Shown here: one piece after another, positions 1 to 40,549 of the stretch
Layout: the number at the start of each line of letters is the position of its first letter
How positions within the stretch are numbered: position 1 is the stretch's first letter
Assembly: GCA_040902765.1 (NCBI GenBank)
Contig: JBBDWO010000014.1
Span: 1 to 64,000, forward strand
Source: Acidimicrobiia bacterium
GTDB lineage: Bacteria; Actinomycetota; Acidimicrobiia; Spongiisociales; UBA11373
Direction: 5' to 3'
Length of the DNA stretch: 64,000 nt
The notes under the pieces: model-generated
What the model was told of the DNA's origin: nothing
The model's database searches: none
Seen by the model: only the letters and a program-made list of their open reading frames with translations
Translations under genes and position numbers: made by a program

Positions 1-64
1 GCCTCCCCCTCCGTCATCGGCCTTCGGCCGCTGCCACCTCCCCCTTCGGGGGAGGAGAGTCAGA
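1..64. repeat. Left-edge copy of the GC-rich palindromic repeat module (X half)
   Basis: This is the same module found at 5.2-6.4, 10.6-10.8, 30.2-30.3, 35.6 and 40.4-40.5 kb. It holds the hairpin ATCGGCC-TTC-GGCCG(C)T and the terminal hairpin CCTCCCCC-TTC-GGGGGAGG. The window begins inside it, so the rest of the array lies to the left. It is followed at once by a 7-bp periodic array at 84-125. Confidence 0.85.
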
Positions 65-1120: not shown

Positions 1121-2363
1121 GCCTCTTACGGCGCATCCCCCGGCGTGACAGGGCCACGTCGTCGCCCATGCGCATGTCGACCGCCTCCGGCTCGAACCCG
1201 GCCAGGTCGGCGAGCCGCGGATCGTTGGAGAACATCTTGACGATCTCCTGATGGAGGCCGGAGGCCCGCTGTATGCGCTTGACCTCCTCGACCTGATCCC
1301 ACTCCACCAGCGTCACCACCAGGCCACTCTCGCCGGCTCGGGCAGTCCTGCCCGAGCGGTGAATGAAGCTCTTGTAGTCCTGGGGCGGGTCGTAGTGGAT
1401 CACCACATCGATGTCGTCGACGTGCAGCCCGCGAGCCGCCACGTTGGTGGCCACCACCACGGGGCGCTTCCCCGAAGCGAGGTCGTCGAGGGTCCGCTCG
1501 CGCAGCGACTGGCGCAGGTCGCCGTGGATCGCCGCCGCCCGGACGCCCTCCTTCTGGAGCGCCTCGGCGACCCGGTCGGCTCCGCGCTTGGTCGACACGA
1601 AGACCAGGGAACGCGACACCGAGGCCGTGATGGCGGCGACCAACTTCGGCTTGTCCATGTGGTGCACCAGGATGAACCGGTGATCCTGGGTGTCGATGAT
1701 GTCCGAGGTCTGCTCCACCTCGTACCGGACCGGATCCTCGAGGTAGCGCTGCACCAGGCTCTGTACTTCCCCGTCGAGGGTGGCCGAGAACAGCATCGTC
1801 TGGCCCACGTTCGGAGCCTCCCGCATGACGCGATGCACCTGCGGGAGGAACCCCATGTCGGCCATCTGATCGGCCTCGTCGATGACGACGGTCGCCAGAT
1901 CCACGAGGTCGACCTTCTTGCGCTCGATGAGGTCGATGAGCCGCCCTGGCGTGGCGACCACGATGTCGACGCCCCTGGCGATGCGGCTGATCTGAGCCTC
2001 GATGGGGACGCCGCCGTAGACGGCCATGATGCCCAGCCCGCGGGCCGCCGCCATCGGCTCGATCTCCTCAGCCACCTGGCTGCACAGCTCACGGGTGGGG
2101 ACGAGGACGAGGGCACGAGGACGCCCGCGATCAGCGGGCGCGGTGCGCTCCACGAGCGGAATGCCGAAGGCGATGGTCTTGCCGGATCCGGTCTGGGCCC
2201 GACCGCACACATCACGGCCGGCGAGTCCGTCCGGAATCGTCAGCGTTTGAATCGGAAACGGGTCGGTGATGCCGCGAGCGGTCAGCGAGGCCACGACGGC
2301 ATCGGAGACTCCCAGGTCGGCGAAGGGCGAGCGGATTTCCGTATCCGCGGTGGAGGATTCCAT
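1116..2363 (-). CDS. DEAD-box ATP-dependent RNA helicase
   Basis: A 415-residue helicase with the full motif set: Q motif around residues 14-39, Walker A AQTGSGKT at 56-63, PTREL at 89-93, TPGR, DEAD at 162-165, SAT at 193-195, HGD, VATNVAARGLHV and HRSGRTARAG in the second RecA domain. The C-terminal tail is short and basic (RRGMRRKRR), as in RhlE/DeaD-type helicases that remodel rRNA or mRNA. The start at 2363 gives MESSTAD followed directly by the Q-motif region. The frame stays open upstream to 2756, but that extension is Arg-rich and resembles no helicase. No convincing ribosome site or -10 hexamer precedes the ATG, so the start is the weakest part of the call. Confidence 0.93.
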   Translation of the reverse strand: MESSTADTEIRSPFADLGVSDAVVASLTARGITDPFPIQTLTIPDGLAGRDVCGRAQTGSGKTIAFGIPLVERTAPADRGRPRALVLVPTRELCSQVAEEIEPMAAARGLGIMAVYGGVPIEAQISRIARGVDIVVATPGRLIDLIERKKVDLVDLATVVIDEADQMADMGFLPQVHRVMREAPNVGQTMLFSATLDGEVQSLVQRYLEDPVRYEVEQTSDIIDTQDHRFILVHHMDKPKLVAAITASVSRSLVFVSTKRGADRVAEALQKEGVRAAAIHGDLRQSLRERTLDDLASGKRPVVVATNVAARGLHVDDIDVVIHYDPPQDYKSFIHRSGRTARAGESGLVVTLVEWDQVEEVKRIQRASGLHQEIVKMFSNDPRLADLAGFEPEAVDMRMGDDVALSRRGMRRKRR

Positions 2364-2709
2364 GGTGAGGTGTGCTCTTTTCGTTCGAAATGGCCGGCCC
2401 CGGAGCGCGACTCGAACGAGAGAACGAGCGGTCGAGGCCCGGCGTCCACGCCCTGTGCGTGCAGACACCGAGAACCATGGTAACAGCCGGAGGTCGCTCC
2501 ACCGCCCTGTTCGCCGCGCTCGAGGGCCAGGGCCGGCCCGAGACGCAGGCGGCGGCACGCGCCGCGCTCGAATGGGTCCGATCGGTCGGGGCTCTTCAGC
2601 TGGAGCGGGCGTGGTCACGCGGCCTGCCCATTTCGAATGAGGCGCGCGAGACGGGCTGGGCCACTTTTTACCTCTCATTCGGATCCTGCTATCTTCCGAT
2701 CCTGCGACG
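2364..2709. other. 346-bp divergent intergenic region
   Basis: This region lies between the helicase and the L,D-transpeptidase. It contains a promoter for the latter (2667-2695) and two inverted copies of a 13-bp block, TC(G/A)TTCGAAATGG, at 2381-2393 and on the opposite strand at 2628-2640. No other feature is convincing; an open frame at 2477-2713 is not supported. Confidence 0.5.
2667..2695 (+). promoter_or_regulatory. Sigma-70-like promoter of the L,D-transpeptidase gene
   Basis: A -35-like TTTACC is separated by 17 nt from a -10 TATCTT. Transcription is predicted near 2702, giving a leader of about 8 nt before the ATG at 2710. This is inferred from sequence only. Confidence 0.5.
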
Positions 2710-3501
2710 ATGACCTTGAGCACACCCATGCGGCGACACCTCGTCACAATCACCACGGTGGCGTTCGCGCTCGGGCTCTGGCCGATGGCCGGGTTCGCCG
2801 CCGAGGTCGTCCCGAACCCGTTCCCGCATCTTTCAACCGGTGCCGAGGGTCCCGATGTAGCCCGACTGCAGGAGGACCTGGCCGAGGCCGGCTTCTACAA
2901 CCACGACATCGACGGGGTGTATGACGAGCGAACCGCGTCGGCCGTGGTGGCGTTTCACAAGTACCTGCGAGTGAAGCGCACCGACGAGTTCTCCACGATC
3001 GACTGGCATCTGCTCAACAACCTGCCGACCGCCGGTCTACCTGCCCGCCCTGGGGCCACCGAGTACGTGGAGGTGGACCTCTCGCGCCAGTTGCTCTTCG
3101 TGGTCCGTGACGGTGAGGTCGCAGGGATCCTCCCGGTCTCCACGGGAGGCGGACACACCTACTGGAGCGTACGCAACGGACGGCATTCGCGGGCATCCAC
3201 CCCGATAGGTGACTTTGCGCTCCGCTGGCGTCAGACCGGCTGGGTCTGCGATCGGACGACCGGCTGGTGCGTCTACAAGTACTGGGCGTTCAGCGACTTC
3301 TACGGGATCCATGGGTATCGGTCGGTCCCGACGGAACCGGCATCCCACGGCTGCGTGCGGCTCAACCTGTGGGACGCCGACTGGATCGAAGACAAGCTGT
3401 CCATCGGCATGGCGGTCCACATCTGGGACCGGCTCCCCGCTCCGAAGGAACCTCCGGATGAGCCTCGGGTGTCCCGTGCGTTCGCGGACATGATCGGCTA
3501 G
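2710..3501 (+). CDS. Secreted L,D-transpeptidase (YkuD) with peptidoglycan-binding domain
   Basis: A 263-residue exported protein. A signal peptide (basic start, hydrophobic 11-27, AXA-like site near 31) is followed by a PG_binding_1 domain at about 42-105 and a YkuD catalytic domain at about 118-245. The active-site block HGYRSVPTEPASHGCVRL places the catalytic His and Cys at about 213 and 215. The enzyme would form 3-3 cross-links or attach proteins to peptidoglycan outside the membrane. Two extra Cys (about 180 and 187) could form a disulfide. The ATG at 2710 fits the promoter just upstream; ATG at 2728 would also leave a signal peptide. The gene is followed 32 bp later by a lipoprotein gene on the same strand. 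Confidence 0.92.
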   Translation: MTLSTPMRRHLVTITTVAFALGLWPMAGFAAEVVPNPFPHLSTGAEGPDVARLQEDLAEAGFYNHDIDGVYDERTASAVVAFHKYLRVKRTDEFSTIDWHLLNNLPTAGLPARPGATEYVEVDLSRQLLFVVRDGEVAGILPVSTGGGHTYWSVRNGRHSRASTPIGDFALRWRQTGWVCDRTTGWCVYKYWAFSDFYGIHGYRSVPTEPASHGCVRLNLWDADWIEDKLSIGMAVHIWDRLPAPKEPPDEPRVSRAFADMIG

Positions 3502-5208: not shown

Positions 5209-5632
5209 CCTCGCGACGCGTCAGCCCTCCCCCTCCGTCATCGGCCTCCGGCCGAGGGGGCCTCGGCCGCCTCCGCGCGGTTCCTCCCCCCGAAGGGGGG
5301 AGTACCGCCCTGAGCGAAGCGAACGGCGGGGAGGGGGCCAGGAGTCATTGGGCCTCGCGACGCGTCAGCCCTCCCCCTCCGTCATCGGCCTCCGGCCGAT
5401 GCCACCTCCCCCTTCAGGGGAGGGGACCGAAAGAGAGGCCGATCGGGGACCGCCTGCCCCTTCCCGCGGTTCCTCCCCCCGAAGGGGGGAGTACCGCCGT
5501 GAGCGAAGCGAACGGCGGGGAGGGGGGAGCCCAAGCACTACGTCGCCCCTCGCGACGCGTCAGCCCTCCGCCTCCGTCATCGGCCTCCGGCCGATGCCAC
5601 CTCCCCCTTCAGGGGAGGAGACCGCAAAGAGG
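5209..5632. repeat. REPIN-like palindromic array, left of the DUF559 gene
   Basis: The array alternates two modules. X is CCCTCCCCCTCCGTC, then hairpin ATCGGCC-TCC-GGCCGAT, then GCCAC and the hairpin CCTCCCCC-TTCA-GGGGAGG. Y is CCTCCCCCCGAAGGGGGGAG, then TACC, the hairpin GCCGTGAGCG...GAACGGC and GGGGAGGGGGGAG. X modules start near 5224, 5370 and 5562; Y modules start near 5282 and 5471. Y passes into X through a conserved linker containing CTACGTCGCC and TCGCGACGCGTC. The reverse complement of X has the same layout as Y, so each Y-linker-X unit is an inverted pair. Confidence 0.9.
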
Positions 5633-5635
5633 GGC

Positions 5636-6007
5636 CTATCGCCAGGGGAGCGGCTTACCGTTCCGCAGTGCCTCGATGGCCACTTCAAGCGCGTGGACAG
5701 CCACATCGACCTCGAAGATATCCCTGTTGTCGAAACGAGCCACTGCGAAGCCCAAGGCTTCCAGGTAGCGGGTGCGTTCCAACTCGTCCCGGCCATCGTG
5801 AGACCCGTCGTCGACCTCGATGACGAGCTTTGGGGCGAAGCAGGCGAAGTCGACGATCCACGGACCCATCGGTACCTGCCGCCGAAACCGGACGCCCAAC
5901 TGCCCGCGTCGAATCCGGGCCCAGAGGCGAGCCTCGACATTCGTCTGCCTCCGCCGTAGAGCCCTGGCACGCTCGGCGGACATCGGATCACGTGGAGGCC
6001 GTGCCAT
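5636..6007 (-). CDS. DUF559 domain protein (Vsr-like endonuclease fold)
   Basis: A 123-residue stand-alone DUF559 protein. The family is related to very-short-patch-repair (Vsr) endonucleases and the PD-(D/E)xK superfamily. Expected signatures are present: an N-terminal RQTNVEARLWARIRRGQLG block, RFRRQVPMGPWIVDF, then LVIEVDDGSH with candidate acidic residues Asp53, Glu64 and Asp66 and His70, and the terminal VARFDNRDIF strand. Length is normal for the family. Its stop lies 3 bp from one palindromic array and a second array begins 37 bp upstream of its start, so the gene is enclosed by repeats. A weak -10 (CATCCT) sits 6 nt before the ATG. Nuclease activity is inferred; the native substrate of this family is not established. 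Confidence 0.87.
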   Translation of the reverse strand: MARPPRDPMSAERARALRRRQTNVEARLWARIRRGQLGVRFRRQVPMGPWIVDFACFAPKLVIEVDDGSHDGRDELERTRYLEALGFAVARFDNRDIFEVDVAVHALEVAIEALRNGKPLPWR

Positions 6008-6044
6008 CCGTGCAGGATGGGTGAGCGCAGATGGAGTTACCAGA

Positions 6045-6440
6045 CCCCTCGCGACGCGTCAGCCCTCCCCCTCCGTCATCGGCCTCCGGCCGATGCCACC
6101 TCCCCCTTCAGGGGAGGGGACCGCGAGAAAGGGCCATCCCCTTCCGTCATCGGCCTGCTGCCGAGGGGGCCTCGGCCGCCTCCGCGCGGTTCCTCCCCCC
6201 GAAGGGGGGAGTACCGCCGTGAGTGAAGCGAACGGCGGGAAGGGGGGAGCCCAAGAACTACGTCACCCCTCGCGACGCGTCAGCCCTCCCCTCCGTTATC
6301 GGCCTGCGGCCGAGGGGGCCTCGGCCGCCTCAACGCGGTTCCTCCCCCCGAAGGGGGGGAGTACCGCCGTGAGCGCAGCGAACGGCGGGGAGGGGGAACC
6401 CAAGCACTACGTCACCCCTCGCGACGCGGCGGGCCGCAAA
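6045..6440. repeat. REPIN-like palindromic array, right of the DUF559 gene
   Basis: This is the same family as the left array. X-type modules start near 6064, 6137 and 6286; Y modules start near 6190 and 6341. The linker CTACGTCACCCCTCGCGACGCG is seen after both Y modules. Module hairpins differ in sequence but keep pairing, for example GGCCTGCGGCC against GGCCTCCGGCC. The array ends about 23 bp before the stop of the helix-turn-helix gene. Confidence 0.9.
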
Positions 6441-10572: not shown

Positions 10573-10820
10573 GCGGTCCCCTCCCCTGAAGGGGGAGGGG
10601 ACCGAAGAGAGGAGCCTTGGCCGTCTCCGCGCGGTTCCTCCCCCCGAAGGGGGGAGTACCGCCGTGAGCGAAGCGAACGGCGGGGAGGGGGGAGCCCGAA
10701 CACTACGTGACGCCTCGCGACGCGTCGGCCCTCCCCCTCCGTCATCGGCCTCCGGCCGATGCCACCTCCCCCTTCAGGGGAGGGGACCAAAGAGAGGGGC
10801 CTCGGTCTCCGCGCGGTCCG
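10573..10820. repeat. REPIN-like palindromic array
   Basis: The array contains the hairpin GGTCCCCTCCCCT-GAA-GGGGGAGGGGACC (10576-10602), a Y module near 10636, the linker CTACGTGACGCCTCGCGACG, and an X module near 10730. It fills most of the gap between the RRM gene and menE. No coding region is supported in 10475-10845. Confidence 0.88.
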
Positions 10821-30088: not shown

Positions 30089-30140
30089 CAGAGCCAGAGA
30101 GGGTAACTACCAGGTGTTCAGTACTTGGTACCTAGACAGC

Positions 30141-30413
30141 GCACAGCTCACAGCTCACAGCCAGAGGGGGCGACACGTGGTCCCTCCCCCCGAAGGGGGG
30201 AGTACCGCCGGGAGCGGAGCGAGCGGCGGGGAGGGGGGAGGGCGAACGCTACGTGGGCATCGCGACACGTCTGGCCTCCCCCTCCGTCATCGGCCTTCGG
30301 CCGCTGCCACCTCCCCCGTCGGGGGAGGAGAGTCAGAACGGACCAATCCCGGACCGCGCCCACTCTGCCTGCTGCAGGCTGCCTGCTGCACGCTGCACGC
30401 TGCAAGCTGCACG
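30141..30413. repeat. Palindromic array flanked on both sides by heptamer arrays
   Basis: Three parts are present. Heptamers: GCACAGC, TCACAGC, TCACAGC (30141-30161). Palindromic unit (about 30178-30335): a Y module with CCTCCCCCCGAAGGGGGGAG and hairpin GCCGGGAGCG...GAGCGGC, the linker CTACGTGGGCATCGCGACAC, and an X module with GGCCTTCGGCC. Heptamers again: CTGCCTG, CTGCAGG, CTGCCTG, CTGCACG, CTGCACG, CTGCAAG, CTGCACG (30365-30413). This accounts for most of the gap 30089-30460. Confidence 0.88.
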
Positions 30414-35490: not shown

Positions 35491-35700
35491 GGTTGCCAGT
35501 CGCCAGTCAAACCGTCCTGGCTGTTGACTGTTGACTGTTAGCTGCTCTGTACCAAGGAGACGCGCTGCGAGGTTTGCGTAGCGATCGCCCTCCCCCCTCC
35601 CCTCCGGTCGCTGCGCTCCCTGCGGGACTCCCCCCTTCGGGGGGAGGGACCACCTATCTCCGCCTCTGGCTGTGAGCTGTGAGCTGTGAGCTCTGTCTGC
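35491..35700. repeat. Palindromic module flanked by heptamer arrays
   Basis: Heptamers come first: GGTTGCC, AGTCGCC, AGTCAAA (35491-35511) and CTGTTGA, CTGTTGA, CTGTTAG, CTGCTCT (35521-35548). A Y module follows in reverse orientation (about 35583-35652, with CTCCCCCCTTCGGGGGGAG). A GCTGTGA heptamer array then runs from about 35668 to 35700. TGCTCTGTACCAAG occurs on both sides (35542 and 35699), so the module is bracketed by a short direct repeat. No gene lies in 35487-35738. Confidence 0.85.
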
Positions 35701-35738
35701 TCTGTACCAAGTACTAAGTCCAAATACCTTCTTGGCTG

Positions 35739-38588: not shown

Positions 38589-40535
<1,947 letters not shown>

Positions 40536-40549
40536 GCAAGAGAACCTCA

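Follow-up and report, generated by a model that had tools for sequence, protein, structure and literature searches.

We found that a compact DUF559 gene and the repeats surrounding it probably constitute a single element, in which a Vsr-like nuclease would act on structured ends and from which dispersed repeat units would be derived. The window analyzed here is the whole 64,000-nucleotide stretch of contig JBBDWO010000014.1 from an Acidimicrobiia bacterium (assembly GCA_040902765.1). Positions 5209 to 6440 of the window are tiled by two alternating module types, A and B, around one DUF559 gene. Ten modules were mapped in this island, five on each side of the gene, just as the original prediction had it. 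The features of the island are as follows.

5209..5255, plus strand: module A, partial, left of the gene
5276..5374, plus strand: module B, left of the gene; hairpin at 5284-5302, loop-2 hairpin, third strand GGGGAGGGGG
5353..5429, plus strand: module A, left of the gene; third strand CCTCCCCCTCC, loop-2 hairpin CGTCATCGGCC..GGCCGATG, hairpin at 5405-5423
5465..5569, plus strand: module B, left of the gene; hairpin at 5473-5491; forms a gene-less head-to-head unit together with module A at 5548..5624
5548..5624, plus strand: module A, left of the gene; hairpin at 5600-5618; reaches the 3' end of the DUF559 gene
5636..6007, minus strand: compact DUF559 gene, 123 aa, predicted Vsr-like PD-(D/E)XK nuclease fold (PF04480 profile and fold)
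6047..6123, plus strand: module A upstream of the DUF559 start codon; hairpin at 6099-6117; third strand facing the gene
6047..6060, minus strand: 14-bp core GACGCGTCGCGAGG at the inner edge of the upstream module A (alignment)
6133..6164, plus strand: module A fragment, right of the gene
6185..6289, plus strand: module B, right of the gene; hairpin at 6193-6211
6268..6313, plus strand: module A fragment, right of the gene
6334..6428, plus strand: module B, right of the gene; hairpin at 6342-6361

The 3' flank of the DUF559 gene in the window is rearranged. The nearest module stands in the wrong orientation, and the canonical 3' side has been lost from this copy through rearrangement. Rather than simple palindromes, the modules are more aptly regarded as triplex units, each a hairpin plus a third strand. 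In each, a hairpin with one pyrimidine and one purine arm (CCTCCCCC-loop-GGGGGAGG) precedes a second loop, itself a hairpin, and a third purine strand (GGAGGGGG) comes last. Arm sequences vary by lineage (CCCTCTCCC, CCTTCCCCC, ATCTCCCCC, and ACTCCCCC), and the plan is constant. The third strand was exact on the gene side in 138 of 189 flanks and on the outer side in 37, compared with 5 in shuffled sequence; the two ends therefore stand in inverted order, in most cases facing the gene. Where the arms are not mirror palindromes, the third strand fitted a mirror repeat over a direct repeat by 77 to 9, and this symmetry ruled out the idea that the strand is an alternative duplex partner. The third-strand base opposite A was A in 135 cases, T in 98, C in 3, and G in 3, that is, A or T in 233 of 239. 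A or T opposite A is the pairing rule of purine-motif (reverse-Hoogsteen) triplexes. A long second loop was present in 43 flanks, 26 of which had an internal stem of at least 5 bp. Mirror order, base choice, and loop stems together suggest selection on the folded shape of the single strand. The pyrimidine arm, purine arm, and third purine strand in mirror order that characterize intrastrand triplex (TM) repeats all were found, and the repeats around DUF559 are, as judged from sequence, predicted members of the TM class with the layout of its class II motif. Physical triplex formation was shown by CD and NMR for the Escherichia coli motif (PMC4666352); here the repeats are read as sequence only. 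At one locus (L117), the arms on either side of DUF559 contain A/T (CCCCTCTTT..AAAGAGGGG), and this end type is an outlier. At another (L005, positions 264 to 665), the flanking repeat supplies the coding sequence for the C-terminal residues of the DUF559 protein, SPSGGGAAR.

The window protein matched PF04480 over its full length (E value, 1.7e-28; 99.1 bits against a curated cutoff of 20.6). Residues R18, E25, D53, E64, D66, R78, and R91 were invariant in 88 homologues. The AF2 model of the protein had a pLDDT of 90, and Foldseek returned gonococcal 3hrl as the best match, followed by the homing endonuclease I-Bth0305I (3r3p); Vsr (1vsr) was a weaker match. By its modeled fold and invariant acidic residues, the protein is predicted to be a PD-(D/E)XK, Vsr-like nuclease, and since the catalytic-type residues are invariant, it is likely to be active. 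The nearest characterized relative is I-Bth0305I, both by profile (7e-5) and by fold (4.6e-4). This relationship favors the main rival to the single-element reading, a route resembling that of homing endonucleases: the nuclease would cut gene-less TM units, repair of the break would copy the gene in with the flanking repeat as homology, and the repeats would spread by other means. Unlike the Vsr-like homing endonucleases, DUF559 is free-standing with its own inverted ends, and no intron or intein was seen.

The link between gene and repeats was assessed in 80 DUF559 loci with flanks of up to 10 kb, taken from a genome collection and selected on protein only; the sample was grown from three Acidimicrobiia seeds, some of them repeat flanked. 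A gene was scored as linked when a polypyrimidine-arm (purine/pyrimidine) hairpin lay within 300 bp. Such a hairpin was observed on at least one side in 73 of 77 compact DUF559 loci from many phyla, compared with 55 of the 746 further genes at these loci (P = 1e-63), so that the anticipated enrichment of repeats near the DUF559 genes of relatives was strongly borne out across phyla. Hairpins stood on both sides in 44 of the 77 loci and at 3 of the 746 other genes (P = 4e-48). Their density was 7.7 per kb within 100 bp of DUF559 and approximately 0.5 per kb at 1 to 10 kb. A second sample, consisting of Gammaproteobacteria chosen by profile HMM, gave 27 of 29 DUF559 loci with a hairpin. No hairpin was found at any of 30 Vsr genes from the same genomes, which served as a control, or at any of 12 long, distant proteins whose C terminus matched DUF559 weakly. 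Among 13 other Acidimicrobiia loci, only 7 reached the same hairpin threshold; different or degenerate arms and short contigs account for part of this shortfall. We regard the association of compact DUF559 genes with these repeats across phyla as near certain.

Phages yielded two weak DUF559 relatives only. Among plasmids, 38 records had DUF559 relatives, some being whole chromosomes filed as plasmids, and defense-system libraries gave no convincing match. We also noted a short contig in an Acidimicrobiia genome (L008; G160:C46) that carries DUF559 with repeats of the gammaproteobacterial type (CCCTCTCCC), possibly through contamination. In L011, a reading frame at approximately 2210 to 3303 starts beside the DUF559 repeat island; we take it by eye to resemble an IS256-type transposase.

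The flank counts bear on a passenger explanation, in which fragile or recombinogenic repeat sites gather small genes, DUF559 among them. E. coli TM loci are indeed hypervariable (PMC4666352), and an efflux operon fills the ycjD slot in E. coli B2/D/E strains. Flanking on both sides is nevertheless specific to compact DUF559 (other genes, 3 of 746), and the order and orientation of the ends are fixed. The end type also tracks the DUF559 protein tree, with 32 changes compared with 58 after shuffling, on a tree with many unresolved forks. Acidovorax DUF559 genes with GGGAGAGG ends, for instance, group with gammaproteobacterial genes having those ends, apart from their own family. Already disfavored by the specificity controls, the passenger explanation is highly improbable.

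Repeat units also were found elsewhere in the window. The original prediction had placed modules of the same family at the left edge and at five other loci; the edge fragment was present, and four clusters rather than five were found.

1..58, no strand assigned: module fragment at the window edge; hairpin at 37-55
10574..10788, no strand assigned: gene-less dispersed unit, B head to head with A, plus one hairpin
30176..30331, no strand assigned: gene-less head-to-head unit
35559..35651, no strand assigned: single module B
40379..40537, no strand assigned: gene-less head-to-head unit, A then inverted B

Short tandem repeats (AGCTCACAGCTCACAGC, GCTCATGGCTCATGG, and CTACTCGCTACTCG) adjoin several repeat units (window positions ~30115-30175, 35660-35711, and 40319-40350 and the end of L001). 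Sequence searches of the whole genome (1.99 Mb in 35 contigs) gave 117 module matches in 54 clusters, comprising 55 matches to the 77-nt A module and 62 to the 105-nt B module, numbers that chance does not explain. The core hairpin CTCCCCC-loop-GGGGGAG occurred 161 times, and the reversed pattern did not occur. These copy numbers are underestimates because repeat arrays break the assembly. Contig ends of this assembly (G000) often lie inside repeats (C5, C31, C34, C35, C8, C9, C21, C26, and C12). All three DUF559 genes of the genome (on C14, which is that of the window, C7, and C3) stand in or beside clusters, for which the probability by chance is ~2e-5.

In the dispersed gene-less units of this genome, A and B meet head to head, with a single core, GACGCGTCGCGAGG, between them. 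Alignment placed this core on both sides of the DUF559 gene in L001 and, slightly changed, in L003, and once in gene-less units. Since the core flanks the gene twice, the gene-less unit equals the gene-bearing unit minus the gene and minus one copy of the core. This difference fits either deletion or insertion. At the window locus, relatives were too diverged to serve for an empty-site comparison and did not keep the gene order. Duplication of the 14-bp core around the gene fits the homing-like route, as does a low-copy gene with high-copy repeats.

One junction was observed in several states. Comamonadaceae differ at the fadB-fadA junction, which is filled in L162, L171, and L190; in L182, it is filled by a 50%-identical DUF559 gene with a different end type; in L167, there is a scar with one hairpin left; and in many other Comamonadaceae, there is only a short gap. 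Terminal inverted repeats are present around the DUF559 gene, for example, TTCCTCCTTCCCCCTCTGGGGGAAGGCAGGATGGGGGC and its inverted partner in L162. The homing-like route gains again from the fact that this junction is shared by two DUF559 genes that are only distantly related and differ in their ends. The route leaves unexplained, however, how gene-less repeats arrive at new intergenic sites and why repeat number follows the gene, and with tens of targets available, most genomes have a single gene copy. We consider this route unlikely.

Several observations are awkward for the single-element reading. In other lineages, DUF559 often is kept at one site across related genera, just like RAYT genes, and this resembles domestication more than active mobility. 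The rearranged 3' flank of the window copy, the lack of a third-strand unit directly upstream of ycjD, the 7 of 13 score of the other Acidimicrobiia loci, and the existence of repeat-rich genomes without the gene also count against this reading. Persistence in synteny would suit another explanation, a domesticated DNA repair nuclease: DUF559 would resolve triplex or hairpin obstacles or mismatches, be kept where repeats abound, and stand beside repeats for regulation. The Vsr-like fold is in keeping with this, and so is VsrA, a DUF559 protein of Caulobacter that is needed for a DNA damage response in cells without a cytosine methyltransferase and has been proposed to be a mismatch repair nuclease (PMC12907096). 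Inverted, gene-facing copies of the substrate on both sides are not normal for repair genes, though, and the Vsr genes had none (0 of 30). Moreover, elements exist whose own ends are the only two matching hairpins of the genome: in G368, DUF559 has one copy of the pattern on each side and the genome has no others, and the same holds for G222 (L081). This repair explanation is distinctly improbable.

In favor of the single-element reading, repeat copy number was found to correlate with gene presence. Among 274 gammaproteobacterial genomes, the median number of hairpins was 8.5 with DUF559 and 0 without it; at least five copies were present in 35 of 60 genomes with the gene compared with 22 of 214 without it (odds ratio, 12; P = 7e-14; kinship ignored). 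The reversed-pattern control in these genomes was mostly 0. Among 198 Acidimicrobiia genomes, the corresponding counts were 11 of 17 and 4 of 181 (odds ratio, 81; P = 4e-11; kinship ignored), and the genome of the window had the highest count, 161. Within its family, genomes carried 10 to 161 copies with the gene and 2 to 8 without it. GC content may contribute to these correlations. The expectation that copy number would track the gene thus held in general and failed in a minority of genomes, which are repeat rich without DUF559 (G330, 91 copies; G510, 82; G284, 61).

YcjD of E. coli and NGO0050 (3HRL) of Neisseria gonorrhoeae are DUF559 proteins. Both belong to the same compact family and have TM-type repeats near their genes (L192 to L194), and both were uncharacterized before. 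ycjD lies between sapF and fabI and is present in 3,366 of 5,426 complete E. coli genomes. A TM repeat stands after ycjD, and no third-strand unit was found directly upstream of it in E. coli. A K-12-like chromosome had 29 copies of the TM core, several of them forming head-to-head pairs 37 to 48 bp apart, and a second ycjD-positive strain had 12. Holder et al. reported higher copy counts in 29 strains and lower ones in 27. Joined sapF-fabI flanks were sought as an empty site and not found; in B2/D/E strains, the slot is occupied by the efflux operon eefRABCD, whose presence there in other phylogroups has been described (PMC12817139). E. coli therefore provides a replacement and not a clean empty site. 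In another E. coli strain (L200), ycjD is frameshifted and the neighboring TM unit is mutated (GGGTAAGGG). The NGO0050-like locus of N. gonorrhoeae (L194, positions 1861 to 2820) has three or more CCTCTCCCTGTGGGA..AGAGAGAGGG units inside 1 kb.

A possible mechanism for the single element is as follows. The DUF559 gene would be bounded by two inverted end units, each a polypyrimidine/polypurine hairpin with a mirror-ordered third purine strand next to it on the side of the gene, and owing to this mirror order a single strand of the end could fold into a triplex. The nuclease would recognize its own folded ends and cut there, most likely when the structure forms on single-stranded DNA at the replication fork, and the ends would be joined by host replication or repair. 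Gene-less units would be nonautonomous derivatives, mobilized now or once by the same nuclease in trans. We infer that DUF559 cuts these ends and that cutting spreads the repeats.

Several known systems resemble this arrangement. Earlier work on TM repeats reportedly was done by Hoyne et al. TM repeats, including TM_ECO, are known from E. coli and more than 260 genomes, and Holder et al. (2015; PMC4666352) reported seeing no mobility genes near TM sites and called the origin of the repeats unclear. The repeats described here share with them the C-arm, G-arm, and third purine strand, the intergenic location in many genomes, and the inverted pairs; unlike the sites in that study, which had no adjacent mobility gene, they bound a specific nuclease gene. 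Enterobacter sp. 638 was reported to contain one hundred CCCTCTCCC..GGGAGAGGG palindromes (PMC2869309). The original prediction had proposed a nuclease-driven analogue of RAYT-REPIN. The association it relied on stands: in both systems, a low-copy nuclease gene, often vertically kept, is flanked by palindromic repeats, these are dispersed in gene-less head-to-head pairs, and copy number tracks the gene. The repeats themselves, however, are of the TM class and not REPs or REPINs proper, with triplex-type hairpin ends in place of GTAG REPs, and the enzyme is a PD-(D/E)XK, Vsr-like protein, whereas RAYT is an HuH/Y1 transposase. The GTAG tag was absent, by eye, from the hairpin feet of the module sequences. 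Because the defining HuH enzyme is absent, the element was not classed as RAYT-REPIN, and we rate it as a variant of a wider kind, a dispersed repeat plus dedicated nuclease.

Module A of the window genome has a second loop of the form CGTC-AT-stem-AT-GCCA, which fits the CGTC tag, AT-starting stem, and CCA tail of the CGTC-tagged REPs, said by Di Nocera et al. (2013; PMC3733652) to "apparently lack a dedicated transposase." Across lineages, just 5 of the 43 long second loops contained CGTC; it was rejected as a general identity, and the two kinds of repeat therefore are not equated. Insertion sequences with MITEs likewise have a gene between terminal inverted repeats and gene-less miniature copies. 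They differ in that no recognized transposase is present here and no defined target-site duplication was established at the outer ends.

No paper linking DUF559 to TM repeats was found in a literature search that lay outside preprints and most subscription journals, so that a prior description is possible. DUF559 and TM repeats each were known separately, and joining them appears to be new. The evidence is evenly poised on a broader claim. On this claim, the elements would form a phylum-spanning class of minimal mobile DNA that carries a single gene, for a Vsr-like PD-(D/E)XK nuclease, between intrastrand-triplex hairpin ends. The TM repeats found in E. coli and many other bacteria would derive from this class, and YcjD would be the enzyme in E. 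coli. TM repeats mark unstable loci in hundreds of bacterial genomes, and DUF559 is a common family with almost no assigned biology; the link between them offers a role for each that can be tested directly in E. coli K-12. If the reading is true, a nuclease fold unrelated to HuH transposases would independently support a REPIN-like repeat system.
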